Part shown: positions 20,351-45,441 of the stretch, piece by piece
Layout: every line of letters begins with the position of its first letter
Numbering within the stretch: position 1 is the stretch's first letter
NCBI GenBank assembly: GCA_018267055.1
Contig: JAFDZF010000122.1
Coordinates: 1-45,441 of the forward strand
Direction of reading: 5' to 3'
DNA: 45,441 nucleotides
Source of the DNA: Bacteroidota bacterium
GTDB taxonomy: Bacteria; Bacteroidota; Bacteroidia; Flavobacteriales_F; PHOS-HE28
Made by a program: the position numbers and the translations under genes
The notes under the pieces: model-generated
Databases searched by the model: none
Told to the model about the DNA's origin: nothing
What the model saw: the letters and a program-made list of their open reading frames with translations, nothing else

Positions 20351-21298
20351 ATGGAACGGAAGAACCCCTCCGATGCCGCGGGCCTCGACCGCCGCCGCTT
20401 CCTGAAAGCCGGCTCCCTGCTGGGCCTGGGCTCCCTCCTGCTCCCGCGCCTCGCCTTCGGGGAACGCGCCGAAAGCCCCGCCGGCGGCGGGGAATGCCTC
20501 CCCACCACGGACGACATCCTCGGGCCGTACTACCTGCCCGGCTCGCCCAACACCACGCAGGTGGCCCAGCCCGGTGAGCCCGGCACGCGGCTCTTCCTCT
20601 CCGGCACCGTGCTCTCCGCGGATTGCGTGACGCCGATCGCCGGCGCCATGATCGAGGTGTGGCAGGCCAATGCCGCCGCGGTGTACGACACGTCCCCCGC
20701 CTTCAACCTGCGCGGCACCCTGCTCAGCGATGCGAACGGGCACTATGCCTTCGAGACCATCGTACCCGGGGCCTACCTCAACGGCGCCCAGTACCGGCCC
20801 AAGCACATCCACTACAAGGTGACCAAGCCCGGGTTCCCGGACCTGATCACGCAGTTGTACTTCGAAGGCGACCCGTACATCGCCGCCGATCCCTGGGCCT
20901 CGCAGCCCGACGCGGCCCTGCGCATCATCCCCCTCAACGAGATCGGCGAGGACCAGCGGGAAGGGCTCTTCGACATCGTGCTCGACGGCACGGTGGGCAT
21001 CAAGCCCAACCGCTTCGGGCTGGACGGCGACCTGCTTCCGCCCTATCCCAACCCCAGCGCCGACCGCACGAGCATCCACTTCAACGTGTTCCACGAGGCG
21101 GCCGTGCAGGTGACGGTGACCGACCTCGACGGCCACGAAGTGGTGACGCTGATCGCGCAACGCATGGCCCAGGGCCGGTACACCACGCAATGGGACGGCC
21201 GCTCGGCCGCGGGCACCACGGTGGCGCCGGGCCTCTACCTGGCGCACCTGCGCATGGACGGCCGCACCATCAAGAGCCACCGCATCGTGCGGCAGTGA
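20351..21298 (+). CDS. Exported intradiol ring-cleavage dioxygenase with Tat signal and T9SS tail
   Basis: A 315-residue protein in three parts. Residues 12-38 form a twin-arginine-like signal (D-R-R-R-F-L-K-A-G then a hydrophobic run). Residues ~48-220 are an intradiol dioxygenase: M-I-E-V-W-Q-A-N-A-A-A-V-Y (Tyr ligand), P-G-A-Y (second Tyr ligand), and P-K-H-I-H-Y (two His ligands), so all four Fe(III) ligands of the protocatechuate/catechol dioxygenase family are present. Residues ~232-315 are a T9SS type A sorting domain (P-P-Y-P-N-P-S-A-D-R-T, D-L-D-G-H-E-V, G-R-Y-T-T-Q-W-D-G-R). Established family chemistry is cleavage of a catechol ring between the hydroxyls; the substrate here is unknown. 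A similar fusion is encoded at 37857-38867. Confidence 0.9.
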   Translation: MERKNPSDAAGLDRRRFLKAGSLLGLGSLLLPRLAFGERAESPAGGGECLPTTDDILGPYYLPGSPNTTQVAQPGEPGTRLFLSGTVLSADCVTPIAGAMIEVWQANAAAVYDTSPAFNLRGTLLSDANGHYAFETIVPGAYLNGAQYRPKHIHYKVTKPGFPDLITQLYFEGDPYIAADPWASQPDAALRIIPLNEIGEDQREGLFDIVLDGTVGIKPNRFGLDGDLLPPYPNPSADRTSIHFNVFHEAAVQVTVTDLDGHEVVTLIAQRMAQGRYTTQWDGRSAAGTTVAPGLYLAHLRMDGRTIKSHRIVRQ

Positions 21299-33023: not shown

Positions 33024-34460
33024 ATGCAACACCCCCGACAAGGAACCCGGATCCTGAGGCCGATCCTACTGCTCGGCACATGTATGCTGGTGCTGGAGGT
33101 CGGCGCTCAGAAGCAGGCGAACGTCTGGTATTTCGGCGGAGGTGCCGGTCTTACGTTCAATACGGACCCACCCACGGCGATAACAGGAGGACAGACCTAT
33201 TACCCGACACCTGCCCTATGGAACGAGGGCACAAGTTCCATTTGTGACAGCGCCGGCGCCTTGCTCTATTATTCCAACGGCGCGCAGGTCTGGGATCGTA
33301 CACATGAGGTCATGCCGAACGGGGCGGACCTGATGGGCCATCCCTCTTCCACACAAGCTGCGCTGATCATCGCAAGGCCGGGCAGCGACCGGTACTTCCA
33401 CATTTTCACCACGGACGGTTCAGAGCACGGGTTCGACAACGGCTTACGCCATTCGGTCATTGATGCCTGCCTGCGGAACGGCCTGGGGGACGTCCTGCCG
33501 GACCAGAAGAACATGCTGCTCCATGGTGATATGGCGGAGAAGCTTGCCGCCGTTCAACATGCCAATGGGCAGGATTATTGGATCGTGGGGCATGAATTCG
33601 GGACGAACATCTTCCACCTCTATCTGCTTACCGAAAGCGGCATAACCGACTCGCTCTCCATCGGCATCGGCCCGAGCGAGATCACCGGTTGGGGAGGCCA
33701 GATCGTCCTCAGTCCGGACGGGACCACACTGGCCTATGCCTCCGCCACGTTGCAGGGCTTTCTCGCCCTGTTCGACCTCAACACATCCACCGGGCTTCTG
33801 AGCAATGAACGGGTATGGATGAGCTCGATGTCCCGCATGCCTTGGGGACTGGCCTTCAGCCCGAACGGGAGCAAACTATACTTCACCACCACCAACCAGG
33901 GAAGCATACGGCAATTGGACCTATCGGCAGGCGATTGGCCGGACGTACAGGCTTCCGAGATCACGCTCGGAACGATCATGCCCGATCTCTGGCGAGACCT
34001 GAGGCTTGGTCCCGATGGCTCGATCTATGTGGCCCATGCGCAACACCCCTCATTGGGCATCATCGCATTCCCTGATGCGCCAGGGCCCGCCTGCCAATTC
34101 CAGGACGATGCGCTGAGCTTGACGGCCGATTGCTCGTTCGGCCTGCCGAACGTGGTCTGCGGGTATGCCTATCACAACGATGTCCACCCGTGTGCGGAAC
34201 CGGCAGGGATCGAAGAACCGATGATGCGTATCACGCTGGGGCCCAACCCAGCGACCGATCGGGTCGACCTGCGCTGCGAGGGCTGCCTGTTCGGCGATCT
34301 CGTCGTATGCGACGTTCTCGGAAGACAGGTCCATCGGAACGAAGGCAGGACCACGTCCTCGCTGACCTTGGACGTCGGTCCATGGTCGGCGGGATGCTAC
34401 CTGGTCACGGTATCGGGTGGTGGACACCGGCTGTTCCAGGGGCGTCTGATCAAGCAATAG
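33024..34460 (+). CDS. Secreted beta-propeller-like protein with T9SS type A tail
   Basis: A 478-residue exported protein. Signal peptide with hydrophobic 13-24, cleavage after V-G-A before Gln30. The start of the mature part N-V-W-Y-F-G-G-G-A-G-L-T-F is typical of a family in Bacteroidota that continues with W-D-R-x-H-x-V-M-P-N-G and several YVTN/WD40-like repeats (V-L-S-P-D-G-T-T-L-A-Y-A, L-A-F-S-P-N-G-S-K-L-Y-F). The last ~75 residues form a T9SS type A sorting domain (L-G-P-N-P-A-T-D-R-V). Base composition is clearly lower in G+C (about 53-60% in sampled lines) than ftsK. ATG 33024 is used; the upstream TTG at 32997 lies in the promoter box. Confidence 0.87.
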   Translation: MQHPRQGTRILRPILLLGTCMLVLEVGAQKQANVWYFGGGAGLTFNTDPPTAITGGQTYYPTPALWNEGTSSICDSAGALLYYSNGAQVWDRTHEVMPNGADLMGHPSSTQAALIIARPGSDRYFHIFTTDGSEHGFDNGLRHSVIDACLRNGLGDVLPDQKNMLLHGDMAEKLAAVQHANGQDYWIVGHEFGTNIFHLYLLTESGITDSLSIGIGPSEITGWGGQIVLSPDGTTLAYASATLQGFLALFDLNTSTGLLSNERVWMSSMSRMPWGLAFSPNGSKLYFTTTNQGSIRQLDLSAGDWPDVQASEITLGTIMPDLWRDLRLGPDGSIYVAHAQHPSLGIIAFPDAPGPACQFQDDALSLTADCSFGLPNVVCGYAYHNDVHPCAEPAGIEEPMMRITLGPNPATDRVDLRCEGCLFGDLVVCDVLGRQVHRNEGRTTSSLTLDVGPWSAGCYLVTVSGGGHRLFQGRLIKQ

Positions 34461-36226: not shown

Positions 36227-37753
36227 ATGAAAGCAGCCCTGCCCTTCGCCTTCCTGCTCACCCCGCTCGCCGCATTCGCCCAACCCGGAACGCTCGACCC
36301 CGCGTTCGGCAGCAATGGAAGAGCAGTGGCCATGGTGACGGGTAACTATAGCTCGGGCGAAGCGATCACCGAGCAGACCGATGGCCGGATCATCGTGGGC
36401 GGAGCCACACCCGGTTCCGCGCTGCTCGTGCGCTTCCTTTCCGATGGCACCCTGGATGCGGGCTTCGGCAACAATGGGTTCGTGCTCACCGACGTGGACG
36501 CGGGCAACGACTTCGTGGGCAGCGTGGCCATGCGATCCGACGGCAGGATCGTGGCCGGAGGCGTGCGCTTCAGCTCTTCCGCCGTGGGCCAGGCCATCGT
36601 GATGCGGCACCTGTCCAACGGCGCCCTGGACAACAGTTTCGGGACGGGCGGCATCCGCACCATCACCTTCACGGGTCCCGGCAGCAGCTTCATCAAGGGC
36701 CTGGTGCTGCAGCCGGACGGCCGCATCGTGGCCTGTGGCGAGCGCTACACCGGCAGCGCATGGAGATCGTTCGTGCTGCGCCTGGGAACGGACGGCACCA
36801 CCGACAGCGGCTTCGGCATCGTGGAGCTGGACGTGAACGCCACCGGCGACGACAATGCCACCGACATCGCCCTGCTTGATGATGGGCGCATCGTGGTGTG
36901 CGGCAGCACGACGGGCCAGGCGGGCGGCGGCATGTTCGTGGTGCGGCTCAATGGCAACGGCACCTTCGACAGCAGCTTCGGCACGGATGGCCGGAAGGTG
37001 CTCGACATCGGGGGCGGCGGAAGCGACAAAGGCAACAGCGTGCGCGTGCAGCCCGACGGCAGGATCCTCGTGTGCGGCGTGATCGATGGGGACAGCGGCT
37101 ACCGCGTCGGCGTGGCAAGGCTGATGACGGACGGCACGCTCGATCCGTCCTTCGCCACGAGCGGCGCCGCGCAGTTCGACCTGGGCGTGGACGGTCAGGC
37201 GACGCCTTCGCTGGCCCTGCAACCCGACGGCCGGATCCTCCTCAGCGTGGCCGACAACACCGCCAGCGCACCGCGCGTGAAGGTGGTCCGGCTATCGGGC
37301 GATGGCACGCCCGATCCCACGTTCGGCACCAACGGCATCGGTACCAGCGATGCCACCAGCGGCAACAACGAAGAGGCCGCCGTCCGCACGCTCTTCCTCG
37401 CCGATGGCGGCATCGCGGTGGTGGGGACCGTGGACACGCCGAACAACATCCAGGTGGCCGTCTGGAAATTCCGCAGCGGATGGAGCATGGGCATCGCCGG
37501 GCCGCTCTCCAAGGGATCGATATCCGCAGCGCCCAACCCGGCGCTCGACTTCGTGGTCCTCACAAGCACGGCACCGTTGGATATCCGAGGAAAGGTGATG
37601 CTCCACGATGCGGCGGGTACGGCCCTGGAAGCCGACGTGATCCGTTCGGCGCAGGGCCTGCGCGTGGATACGCGCAGGCTGGCGCCGGGCGCCTATACCC
37701 TCTCGTTCACCACCGCTGAAGGGGTCGCCACCGCACGGTTCATCAAGCAATGA
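36227..37753 (+). CDS. Delta-60 repeat surface protein with T9SS type A tail
   Basis: A 508-residue protein. The signal peptide ends F-A before Gln19 (A-F-A-Q-P). Seven delta-60 repeats are visible by their G-x-x-D-x-x-F-G core: at about 22, 74, 127, 185, 241, 298 and 360 (for example G-T-L-D-P-A-F-G and G-T-F-D-S-S-F-G). Between them are D-G-R-I-(V/L) strands of a propeller. The last ~75 residues (from about 430, I-S-A-A-P-N-P-A) are a T9SS type A sorting domain ending A-R-F-I-K-Q. Such proteins are surface-exposed or secreted; the ligand is unknown. The gene ends about 100 bp before the second intradiol dioxygenase gene. Confidence 0.9.
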   Translation: MKAALPFAFLLTPLAAFAQPGTLDPAFGSNGRAVAMVTGNYSSGEAITEQTDGRIIVGGATPGSALLVRFLSDGTLDAGFGNNGFVLTDVDAGNDFVGSVAMRSDGRIVAGGVRFSSSAVGQAIVMRHLSNGALDNSFGTGGIRTITFTGPGSSFIKGLVLQPDGRIVACGERYTGSAWRSFVLRLGTDGTTDSGFGIVELDVNATGDDNATDIALLDDGRIVVCGSTTGQAGGGMFVVRLNGNGTFDSSFGTDGRKVLDIGGGGSDKGNSVRVQPDGRILVCGVIDGDSGYRVGVARLMTDGTLDPSFATSGAAQFDLGVDGQATPSLALQPDGRILLSVADNTASAPRVKVVRLSGDGTPDPTFGTNGIGTSDATSGNNEEAAVRTLFLADGGIAVVGTVDTPNNIQVAVWKFRSGWSMGIAGPLSKGSISAAPNPALDFVVLTSTAPLDIRGKVMLHDAAGTALEADVIRSAQGLRVDTRRLAPGAYTLSFTTAEGVATARFIKQ

Positions 37754-41695: not shown

Positions 41696-43192
41696 ATGGA
41701 ACCACGGACCGTCCTACCCCACCCCGGCGCACGCTTCGCGCTGACCGGCCTGCTGGCCGCGGTCCTGGTACCCCTCCAGGGGCAGACGGTGACCAACGGC
41801 TCGGTGACCGGGCCGGTGGGCAACAGCATGGTGTGGGCCCTGCCGGGCTGGACGGCGTGCAGCCAGCCATCGAACAATTCACCGGACGTGCTGGACATGA
41901 GCTTCGCCTCGTGGAACGGCTCCACCACGGTGACGCCCACGGCATCGCCCGACGGCGGCTCGTGGCTGGGGCTGGCCAACGGCGTGGACCCCGTGGAGCA
42001 GGAATGCGTGAGCGGCGCCATGACCGGCTTGACGGTGGGCAGCTCCTACCAGCTGCGCTTCTGGGGTGCCTGCTTCGGCAGCGGCCCGGGCAGCTATGCC
42101 AACGGCAGCCCGGTGGTGCTCACCCTCACGATCGGCACCAGCCAGCAGGAGTTCATCATCCCGATGGCGGCCGGCACGTGGCTGCCGCTGGCGATGTGCT
42201 TCACGGCGGACGCCACCGAGATGGACTTCACCATGCAGACCTTCTCCGGCGGCGGCTACGGCAGCTTCGACGGGTTCACCGTAGGGCCCAGCAACGGGAA
42301 CACCGACGTGCTGCCGGACACCGTGCTCTGCCTGGGCGGTACGCTGCTGCTGGACCCGGGCCTGGCCAACGCCGCCTATATATGGCAGGACGGCTCCACG
42401 GACGGGACCTTCCTGGTGGACGCCCCCGGCACGTACTGGGTGGACATCACCACCGCCTGCGGCACGGGCCGAGACACGATCGAGGTGACGGGCGTGACGC
42501 CCGGCCAGCTGGACCTGGGCCCCGACACCACGCTCTGCACCGGGACCACCTGGACCATCGCCCCGGGCCTGCCGGGCGCCTATGAATGGCAGGACCATTC
42601 CACGGCCCATGCCTATACCGTGACCACGGCCGGCACCTATTCCGTGGCCATCGACGGGAGTTGCGGGCTGCTGCGCGATACCGTGGAAGTGAGCGTGGCG
42701 CCCCCGCCCGCCGTGGACCTGGGGCCCGACACCCTGTTCTGCGCGGGCGGCGTGTTCCTCCTGGACGCCACGCTGGCGAACGCCAGTTACCATTGGCATG
42801 ATGGCTCCACCAGCGCCGCCTTCCCCGCCACGCAGGCGGGCCTCCATTGGGTGGCGGTGACGGTGGACGGCTGCAGTGCGCGCGATTCGATCCTGCTGGC
42901 CACCGAGGAATGCGGGGTGCTGGTGGACATGCCCAACATCTTCTCCCCCAACAGCGACGGGCACAACGACCGGTTCATACCGGTGACGCTCCGGGGCGTG
43001 TCCACCTCCGCGCTGACGATCTACAACCGCTGGGGCCAGGCGGTGTACGAGACCGACGACGTGCGGCAGGGCTGGGACGGCCGGGTGGCCGGCACGGCCT
43101 GCGCCGAGGGCACCTACTTCTGGTGCATCCGCTACCGGAGCACCCTGGACGTGGCCGCCACGCAGAGCGGGCACGTGCTGGTGGTCCGCTGA
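41696..43192 (+). CDS. Surface adhesin-like protein with T9SS type B (gliding) sorting domain
   Basis: A 498-residue exported protein. Signal peptide hydrophobic 13-25, cleavage near L-Q-G before Gln30. Residues ~30-200 form a carbohydrate-binding-like jelly-roll (M-V-W-A-L-P-G-W near 45, W-G-A-C-F-G near 121, F-T-V-G-P-S near 197). Three Ig-like modules follow with the repeated core D-T-x-x-C-x-G-x-x-x-L-D near 209, 280 and 345. From about 405 the gliding-type domain (P-N-I-F-S-P-N-S-D-G-H-N-D, I-Y-N-R-W-G, W-D-G-R) ends the chain. Likely attached to or released from the cell surface by T9SS. Confidence 0.9.
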   Translation: MEPRTVLPHPGARFALTGLLAAVLVPLQGQTVTNGSVTGPVGNSMVWALPGWTACSQPSNNSPDVLDMSFASWNGSTTVTPTASPDGGSWLGLANGVDPVEQECVSGAMTGLTVGSSYQLRFWGACFGSGPGSYANGSPVVLTLTIGTSQQEFIIPMAAGTWLPLAMCFTADATEMDFTMQTFSGGGYGSFDGFTVGPSNGNTDVLPDTVLCLGGTLLLDPGLANAAYIWQDGSTDGTFLVDAPGTYWVDITTACGTGRDTIEVTGVTPGQLDLGPDTTLCTGTTWTIAPGLPGAYEWQDHSTAHAYTVTTAGTYSVAIDGSCGLLRDTVEVSVAPPPAVDLGPDTLFCAGGVFLLDATLANASYHWHDGSTSAAFPATQAGLHWVAVTVDGCSARDSILLATEECGVLVDMPNIFSPNSDGHNDRFIPVTLRGVSTSALTIYNRWGQAVYETDDVRQGWDGRVAGTACAEGTYFWCIRYRSTLDVAATQSGHVLVVR

Positions 43193-43322: not shown

Positions 43323-45441
43323 TCACGGCACCTGACCGTTGCGCACCTGTGTGGGCAGACCTCCGCCGATGCTCTGGAGGATGGGATCGCGGTCGTTCCC
43401 GGCCCCCGTGTACTTGATCATGGCGTCCATGTTCACATCGGCGGATGAATAGACCCCATTGACCACCTGGGTGGGTACCGACCCACCGATGGCCACCAGG
43501 ATGGGGTCGCGGTCATTGCCAGCGCCGGTGTAGGCGATGCGTGCATCCCGATGCACGTCACCCGTCCACAGCAATGCGCGCCCTCCCACCACCTTGCGCG
43601 CATCCACGCCATAGGCCATGGTCGTGGTCAGCGAAAGGTCGATCATCGTGGAGGCGGTGCCCACCGCGACCGCAGAGGCCGTCATCGCCCCCAGGTGGTT
43701 ACGGTGCTGGATAGCGATGTAATAGCTGCCCGCCGAGGCCGGCAAGCGCACCGGGGAAACGCCGTCCGTGCCCACCACGTCACCATCGCGCTGGAGCAGC
43801 GCGCAGGTCGAGGCAACGACCAGACCGGGCTGCGATGGATGGTGCAGCTCCACCACCACCCAATCCACGATGGCATTGGGGCCGGTGGCGGCCAGCACGG
43901 CGGAGGTCGTGGCCTCCCCGCCGCTTGAAGCATGGTCGTAGCCGAGCGCGGTATAGGGCTCGGTGAGCGGCACCAGCCCGGCCGTGCGCAGCGCATCGCT
44001 CATCAGGCCGGAAGCACTGTCGTAGGGACCATCGAGCAGCACTTTCGGGCGCAACTGCACCTGGTCCGCGCTGGCCACCGGGGTGTATTCCCACATGTCA
44101 TGGGTGCACGATGTCGTTCCGATCTCGCCGGCTCCTACATAAGCCTTGTTCCCCGCCACGAAGGCGAACGCCTGATCGCGCGGCACACCCCCGAAGTCCG
44201 CCTTCTGCGTCCAGGTGTCGGTGGCTGGATCATACTCCCAGAGGTCCTTGCGGTAGGCCCCATCATAGCCAGTGGCGATGTAGCCCTTGCCCCCGATGGT
44301 GAACGCGACCGCACCATAGCGCGCCGTGCCACCGAAATCGGCCTTTTGCGTCCATGTATCGGCCATGGGGTCATATGCCCACATGTCACGGTACACGACG
44401 CCCGCACCCACACCTGTGCCCACGTATACCTTGCCGCCGATGCGGAAGGCCACGGACTTTTGCCTGGCCCCTCCCGGGAAGGTGGCTTTCTGCGTCCAGG
44501 CATTGTTCGCGGGGTCGTATTGCCAGAGGTCGTTCTTCAGGGTGTTCGCATACGCGAGCCCCAGCCCCACATAGCCCTTGCCATTGGCGCTGAACCCCAC
44601 TCCCCAAGCGCGTCCGCCCGCGCTCGTGGGCATCGCAGCGGCGAACGACCACAGGTCGGTCCCCGGGTTGTAGCGCATGTTGTAATTGAAGTAGGACAGC
44701 ACGTCGCGGTAAACCCCACCCACTTTGTAGGCCTGTGTGCCGATGGTGAAGGTGGCCGATGCGTCGAAGTTGTACTCCGTTCCCGTACGCTTGGTCCACT
44801 GGCCCGTTGCGGGATCATACTGCCAGGCTTCCTGGGTGGGCCGGTTGATGCTTTGGGAACCCGCCACGAAGAAGCCCTTGCCCCCCATGCTGAACGCCCC
44901 GCAATCGCGCAGGTCCATGCCGCCCAGGTACTGCCGCGGCGTAAAGCTCGTGGTGGCCGGATCGAAGCACCAGAAATCATAGTAAGTCTTGGACCAATCG
45001 GAGTACAGATGTCCGCCGCCGATGTAGCCCTTGTTGCCGATCGCCAGCGCAAAGCCCCAATCGCGCCCACTGGTGTCGCCGAAACCGCCCATGTTGGTCC
45101 ACGTGTTGGCGACCGGATCGTAGGCATGGATGTTCCGGCTGATGTTGAACCCTTCCGCCCCGCATCCGGCGTATCCTTTCGATCCGATAGCGAAGGATAC
45201 CATGCGCATCCTCGCGCCCGGGAAATTGGCGCACGCCGCCCAGGTGTTCGTGGAGGGATCGTATCCGTAGGTCGTGTTCGTATACGTGTTGTCACCGGAA
45301 CCAACGGATGTGATGCCACCGGCCACATACCCCTTGCCGCCGACGGAGAAGGCCGCTGCCCGGGCGCGTGGTCCGGGCATGTCCGCCAGCTGCGTCCACG
45401 CGTTCGCCACCGGGTCGAACGACCAGAGGTCCTTCTTGTAC
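43323..45441 (-). CDS. Kelch-repeat surface protein with duplicated C-terminal module (5' end outside window)
   Basis: The frame is open to the right edge, so the start is missing; about 706 residues are visible. At least nine kelch-like repeats, each with Y-D-P-x-x-x-x-W and G-x-K-x-Y-x-x-x-G, form one or more propellers. They are followed by a domain with 'LLDGPYDSASGLMSD', 'DWVVVELHHPS', L-L-Q-R-D-G-D-V-V-G and A-I-Q-H-R-N-H-L-G, which I recognise from many long Bacteroidota surface proteins. The last ~60 residues hold two copies of a Y-T-G-A-G-N-D-R-D-P-I-L module with an S-A-D-V-N-M-D-A stretch before the second. No ordinary T9SS tail follows, so this ending may itself be the anchoring signal. 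Base composition is lower in G+C than most of the window. Confidence 0.85.
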   Translation of the reverse strand, partial: YKKDLWSFDPVANAWTQLADMPGPRARAAAFSVGGKGYVAGGITSVGSGDNTYTNTTYGYDPSTNTWAACANFPGARMRMVSFAIGSKGYAGCGAEGFNISRNIHAYDPVANTWTNMGGFGDTSGRDWGFALAIGNKGYIGGGHLYSDWSKTYYDFWCFDPATTSFTPRQYLGGMDLRDCGAFSMGGKGFFVAGSQSINRPTQEAWQYDPATGQWTKRTGTEYNFDASATFTIGTQAYKVGGVYRDVLSYFNYNMRYNPGTDLWSFAAAMPTSAGGRAWGVGFSANGKGYVGLGLAYANTLKNDLWQYDPANNAWTQKATFPGGARQKSVAFRIGGKVYVGTGVGAGVVYRDMWAYDPMADTWTQKADFGGTARYGAVAFTIGGKGYIATGYDGAYRKDLWEYDPATDTWTQKADFGGVPRDQAFAFVAGNKAYVGAGEIGTTSCTHDMWEYTPVASADQVQLRPKVLLDGPYDSASGLMSDALRTAGLVPLTEPYTALGYDHASSGGEATTSAVLAATGPNAIVDWVVVELHHPSQPGLVVASTCALLQRDGDVVGTDGVSPVRLPASAGSYYIAIQHRNHLGAMTASAVAVGTASTMIDLSLTTTMAYGVDARKVVGGRALLWTGDVHRDARIAYTGAGNDRDPILVAIGGSVPTQVVNGVYSSADVNMDAMIKYTGAGNDRDPILQSIGGGLPTQVRNGQVP

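Follow-up and report, generated by a model that had tools for sequence, protein, structure and literature searches.

The kelch protein encoded at the end of the window, by which we mean the whole stretch of 45441 bases analysed here, finishes in a conserved module of about 250 residues with a predicted X-module-dockerin fold. We give about an even chance to the explanation that this X-dockerin-like dyad is a portable C-terminal label for sorting or anchoring, used in place of a type A, B or C domain of the type IX secretion system (T9SS). Overall, our analysis supports the predicted fold, the tandem of loops, the C-terminal position, the many unrelated cargos, the company of SprA and the exchange with type A signals.

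The kelch protein lies on the minus strand at 43323..45440, an open reading frame of which we have the C-terminal 705 residues; since the window spans contig G000:C25 from end to end, the frame is cut at its 5' end by the contig end and the N-terminus falls outside the data. Its cargo part is formed by kelch repeats (44136..45371, minus strand; residues 24-435), recognised by Pfam Kelch_1 (2.4e-37) and several kelch models. An earlier note on this DNA had claimed a tandem repeat at the C-terminus of the protein, and the repeat is real: YTGAGNDRDPIL is present twice, with a spacing of 40 residues, within the C-terminal 69 residues, the fuller forms of the two copies being YTGAGNDRDPILVAIGGSVPTQVVNG and YTGAGNDRDPILQSIGGGLPTQVRNG. 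The identical 12-mers are located at 43497-43532 (copy 1) and 43377-43412 (copy 2) on the minus strand, and their DNA is identical at 29 of 36 bases, with the same codon at 5 of the 12 residues and silent differences at the other 7, which argues that the likeness is maintained at the protein level. SADVNMDAMI stands directly before copy 2, as had been described, and a corresponding loop, GDVHRDARIA, stands before copy 1, so that both copies are loop-plus-helix units. The likening of the D-x-N-x-D loop to dockerins and EF-hands agrees with the predicted fold and with weak profile matches. The proposed unit, a pair of modules in about 60 residues, has to be redrawn: the conserved unit is about 250 residues long and includes an upstream beta-domain, and the two copies are the two halves of one dockerin-like domain.

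The alignment of 16 tails from the same genome shows the layout of these roughly 250 residues, which runs from an upstream domain with an HRNH motif through the tandem to a closing Q-x-P. On the minus strand of the window, the whole X-dockerin-like C-terminal module has 248 residues at 43326..44069, as delimited by alignments, the AlphaFold model and fold matches. Predicted secondary structure and conservation place the X-like beta-domain with the HRNH motif at 43572..44069 (module residues 1-166, the boundary being approximate), and the alignment and the model place the dockerin-like tandem at 43326..43571 (residues 167-248). The first loop-helix unit, which includes copy 1, is found by alignment at 43497..43559 (residues 171-191; helix 188-193 in the model), and the second, which includes copy 2, at 43377..43439 (residues 211-231; helix 227-233). 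The terminal Q-[LVIM]-P, QVP in the window, occupies 43326..43334, with P in all 79 aligned members and Q in 78. N185, D186, R187, D188, D226, R227 and P248 are invariant in the 79 aligned module sequences, showing that the tandem is not due to chance. Loop 1 has D or N at positions 171 and 175 in 79 of 79, and loop 2 has D211 in 79, N213 in 69 and D215 in 73. With these conserved acidic or asparagine positions and a model helix after each, both loops are of the EF-hand type.

AlphaFold, applied to the window module with 78 homologues, predicts a beta-domain followed by two loop-helix units (mean pLDDT 96.6, pTM 0.93). The top eight PDB entries in VIA-align all contain X-module-dockerin dyads, with rmsd 3.8-4.1 and Z 8.8-10.2, which is higher, though not hugely, than the best Z of 7 to 8 described as common in the guidance for this method. 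These matches align 144-151 residues, from model residue 1 or 3 to 244 or 248, and are followed by SleC (Z 5.4) and then by transthyretin-like domains (Z 4.6 and below). The top PDB match in Foldseek is likewise an X-dockerin, 4wi0_B (E 6.8e-3, probability 0.98, TM 0.37 of the query), and ranks 1, 2, 4 and 5 are of this kind with TM about 0.37-0.39 of the query; nothing in the PDB matches the whole module at E<=0.001. Modelled separately, the tandem has a pLDDT of 84.8, and its single VIA-align row with Z>=2 is the dockerin 4fl4_A (Z 3.2), Foldseek retrieving no dockerin and no useful match with this model. On the whole, the predicted module matches the order of beta-domain and two-helix dockerin seen in the X-module-dockerin dyad.

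The relation is faint in sequence. In the window protein, Pfam and NCBIfam matches are confined to the kelch repeats, no model covering the module; over the 16 own-genome tails they give stray matches to single members (best E 0.01 and 0.049), and Dockerin_1 (PF00404) matches none of the 16, window module included. Profile A1, built from these 16 tails, finds nothing at E<=10 among PDB sequences. The wide profile A3, built from 30 members across Bacteroidota, gives weak matches to 22 different PDB sequences (E<=10), the best being 5lxv_B (0.0038), followed by the CipA X-dockerin 2b59_B (0.0051) and 2vn5_B (0.0063); the names of several include dockerin or cellulosomal scaffolding protein, and others are dockerin constructs. 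Dockerin_1 matches 8 of the 30 A3 members at E<=0.1, all weakly (best 9.4e-4), and Pro_racemase also matches 3 of the 30 with a slightly better best value (2.3e-4), presumably by chance. Members of the wide family resemble ordinary dockerins, for example with DVNQDGFVNSTDLNLVYSQNI in tails of the L241 type, and by eye their loops have the usual dockerin form. The loop of the genus form is about 4 residues longer than the usual 12-residue, Asp-ended loop, the extra residues being placed before the conserved NDRD; this longer YTG..NDR loop is not restricted to the genus, similar ones being found in L099, L101, L102, L108 and L112 from other families. A search of plasmid records with one wider member gave no match. 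A signal of sortase or exosortase type was considered and rejected, as neither the window protein nor the 16 own-genome tails have a hydrophobic segment with a basic tail. The ending had been called possibly undescribed, and this stands in that no Pfam or NCBIfam model falls on the window module, but the fold has a known relative in the X-dockerin dyad. Among the papers listed on T9SS-linked dockerins and further T9SS signals (including PMC12618676, PMC11285876 and PMC11969387), none describes the module, as judged mostly from titles and the openings of abstracts and otherwise from passages.

We then present the distribution of the module. With the last 125 residues as query, 18 places are matched in its own genome (3.86 Mb, 203 contigs), 16 of them strongly (E 2.4e-78 to 3.0e-31) and two weakly (E 0.3-0.6), and all 16 copies finish within 5 residues of the stop. 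Each of the 45 genomes examined in the genus carries the module, with 4-48 copies per genome. A contig scan for relatives found 353, and the titles of the best 80 name Bacteroidota, Bacteroidetes, Flavobacteriales or Chryseobacterium; these best 80 yield 79 module loci, a selected set, and in 79 of 79 the module ends exactly at the stop codon. For the phylum, inspection of 29 loci by eye shows that in 26 the protein and the module end no more than a few residues apart, two (L100, L127) have about 30 residues extra, and one (L104) is interrupted by a stop. Among 75 further phylum matches, counted without own-genome rows, nine weaker fragment rows and the rows for which loci already existed (L157-L186), the distance to the end of the model is at most 8 residues in 56 and 9-34 in 14, making 70 of 75 within 34 residues of the stop; copy numbers in the phylum scans with A1 and A3 are lower bounds, at most 6 candidates being scored per genome. 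The C-terminal position claimed for the module is thus found at all three scales, and the module is not mostly internal, the exception being a few weak matches inside proteins of about 2100 residues. Such partial, weak matches to the wide module occur in L258-L261, within proteins of about 2000-2150 residues from several genomes. Another weak match, L257 (E 1.3e-5), is followed by an apparent type A end, possibly giving a dockerin-like and a type A part in one protein. Two own-genome tails at contig ends (L003 166-540 and L012 3-281) have 3 differences in their last 93 residues, and represent either a recent duplication or variants of one gene from different strains.

It is of interest to compare this distribution with that of the T9SS. 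In a survey of 395 genomes, all Bacteroidota, SprA is present in 303, and the module is detected in 52 by A1 and in 54 by A3; the 54 genomes belong to 23 families and are all SprA-positive. The naive probability of this co-occurrence is 1.8e-7 with kinship ignored, and the co-occurrence is weak evidence because 14 of the 20 SprA-lacking genomes listed belong to one family. In this sample the module keeps company with SprA, no genome having the module without it, which is in line with the suggested tie to T9SS genes. In the own genome, SprA is found on two contigs, and the ends above the cut-off number at least 147 for type A (150 of 208 candidates scored), 56 for type B and none for type C. 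The models for types A, B and C (TIGR04183, TIGR04131 and NF033708) match elsewhere in this genome than the module tails, and give no match to the 16 own tails at E<=1 or to the 30 wider members at E<=0.1, so that the absence of a type A or B domain is confirmed and identity of the module with type A, B or C was rejected. The idea of a third kind of sorting domain is overtaken by the type C signal (ChiA) described in PMC10202324, in the passages concerned; the module would be a fourth class, not a third. The same contig has type B ends (539-802 and 42926-43186) and type A ends (21044-21295, 34242-34457 and 37529-37750) on its plus strand, and with these five proteins three kinds of ending stand side by side. 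On another contig, four tail-bearing genes are consecutive (L004, L007, L009 and L013; G000:C91:4541-15479), and the gene next to them has a type A end; tail-bearing and type A-ended genes are mixed in a similar way at L045 and L073.

The module is carried by diverse, apparently secreted proteins. A start resembling a signal peptide, by a rule of our own, is detected in 58 of 64 complete tail-bearing ORFs and in 16 of 325 internal stretches; the same rule is positive in 194 of 374 neighbour ORFs, showing that it is lax or that the neighbours are also secreted. The cargo scan took 61 of the 64 complete ORFs, leaving out L030 (start unclear), L094 and L097, and these 61 proteins form 25 clusters, the largest having 20. 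They include reprolysin-type peptidases (9), PKD (9), glucose/sorbosone dehydrogenase (6), lysyl oxidase (6), MAM (6), M36 (3) and subtilase (2). Among the 451 ORFs at the 79 loci, 18 have no tail and a cargo homologous to that of a tail-bearing ORF. Eight of the 18 were scanned, and all eight end in TIGR04183, seven at or over the cut-off of 23 bits (L092 38.5; L059 32.7; L045 29.4 and 23.1; L073 28.3 and 26.8; L062 25.0) and one below it (L054 22.0); by eye, several of the other 10 are interrupted where a contig stops, and L058 has a tail that is truncated. The pairs with a type A end and a module end, respectively, include kelch proteins (L045 and L026, 27% over 563 residues), sortilin-type propellers (L092 and L039, 27% over 862), DUF5122 proteins (L062 and L022, 29% over 418) and PKD proteins (L054 and L085, 53% over 541), and two of the eight type A homologues share merely 120-153 residues with the tail-bearing ORF. 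Homologous cargo of these four kinds therefore ends in either the module or a type A signal, which supports interchangeability; on the simplest reading, cargo of one kind can be served by either ending, with the module acting in the role of the type A signal.

We explain the ending as follows. The signal peptide would direct the protein to export by Sec. The module, predicted as a beta-domain with two EF-hand-type loop-helix units closed by the conserved Q-x-P, would then take the place of a type A, B or C domain, directing the protein through the outer membrane via the T9SS, holding it on the surface, or both, the hold being a calcium-dependent contact with a receptor other than a Pfam-recognised cohesin. 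The fold suggests docking, and the lack of any further T9SS signal on proteins that start with a signal peptide suggests export. Several results weigh against this explanation: no cohesin over the cut-off, modest Foldseek scores, a weak dockerin match of the tandem by itself, no PDB sequence found by A1, longer loops in the genus form, weak co-occurrence with SprA and a signal-peptide rule that is often positive in neighbours. In addition, no conserved neighbour that could be a partner gene was found among the 451 ORFs at the 79 loci. The module is probably calcium-dependent; calcium binding, dependence on the T9SS as export route, the receptor, and a role in export, anchoring or both are what we infer. 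A bolder version, held tentatively and with clearly less than an even chance, makes the module a fourth class of T9SS signal on the X-dockerin fold, calcium-loaded and freely swapped with type A, by which enzymes and adhesins, dozens of them in each genome, would cross the outer membrane and then dock to a receptor that is not a cohesin.

The module may instead serve docking only, the dockerin-like half pairing with a diverged cohesin-like domain of a surface scaffold, with no role at the outer membrane and the protein leaving by another exit route or riding with a partner. This is possible though rather unlikely in our judgement. The X-dockerin fold and the varied enzymes carried, as in cellulosomes, speak for it, and so do the near-symmetric halves, with a mean identity of 73% over 21 columns (alignment A4, 55 of the 79 genus-set sequences; L054, with an insert, was left out of A2), as in the dockerins with two binding faces treated in part of PMC5301203. 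Moreover, W168 (75 of 79) and P248 (79 of 79) are reminiscent of the Trp-Pro clasp known from dockerins, as passages of PMC5934362 describe, and may form such a clasp by analogy. However, cohesin PF00963 is absent from the own genome at E<=1, and reaches the Pfam cut-off in none of the 45 genus genomes, with weak matches in four (E 0.03-0.06), so a docking receptor would be new or diverged. Docking alone also leaves unexplained how proteins without a type A, B or C signal exit, and why type A signals take the module's place on homologous cargo. A structural cap or adhesion domain, that is, a calcium-stabilised end piece of secreted proteins with no sorting role, would account for the calcium-loop look, the N- to C-terminal clasp residues and the many beta-rich proteins that carry the module, and a fixed C-terminal proline would follow without any sorting role if W168 and P248 make the clasp; we consider it improbable, as it does not explain why all 79 modules stand at the extreme C-terminus or why there is exchange with type A signals. 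That the module is a diverged signal of known type is scarcely credible, for although it is C-terminal in SprA-bearing genomes and its beta-domain weakly resembles a T9SS C-terminal domain, that of mirolase (8qb1, Z 3.4, 77 aligned), many unrelated beta folds equal this Z and the type A, B and C models give no match.

A genome may have as many as 48 secreted proteins, including metallopeptidases and oxidases, with an ending that Pfam and NCBIfam do not name, and because of this current pipelines would leave them out of a list of T9SS cargo. The way in which different signals are recognised by the T9SS, and whether their destinations differ, is put forward as an open question in PMC10202324, and the module would answer part of it should it prove to be a sorting signal. 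If it is a docking module, it would be a cohesin-free counterpart of the cellulosome in these bacteria, and if the fourth-class reading is true, cellulosome-style docking and type IX secretion would be combined in one domain.

Compared with known systems, the module is like T9SS types A (TIGR04183), B (TIGR04131) and C (NF033708) in its extreme C-terminal position, its many cargos and its SprA-bearing Bacteroidota hosts, and unlike them in being unmatched by their models and in having a different predicted fold with two loop-helix units. Dockerin_1 (PF00404) shares its D-x-N-x-D-G loops with the wider module family, whereas the window module has no Dockerin_1 match; the Bacteroidetes genomes examined in PMC5831590 and PMC6247017 are stated, in passages of these papers, to be without dockerins. 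The closest comparison is with the X-module-dockerin dyad of clostridial scaffoldins (CipA, ScaA; type II; PDB 2b59, 4u3s, 4wi0, 5g5d). In contrast to that dyad, the module has an upstream domain nearly twice as long, has loops about 4 residues longer in the genus, and occurs in outer-membrane Bacteroidota at 4-48 copies per genome with varied cargo and without a Pfam cohesin over the cut-off. The two have in common the order of a beta-domain and a two-loop dockerin, the C-terminal position and a fold match over the whole module, and the known X-dockerin dyads attach to the cell surface through a calcium-mediated contact with cohesin, as passages of PMC12484212 describe.
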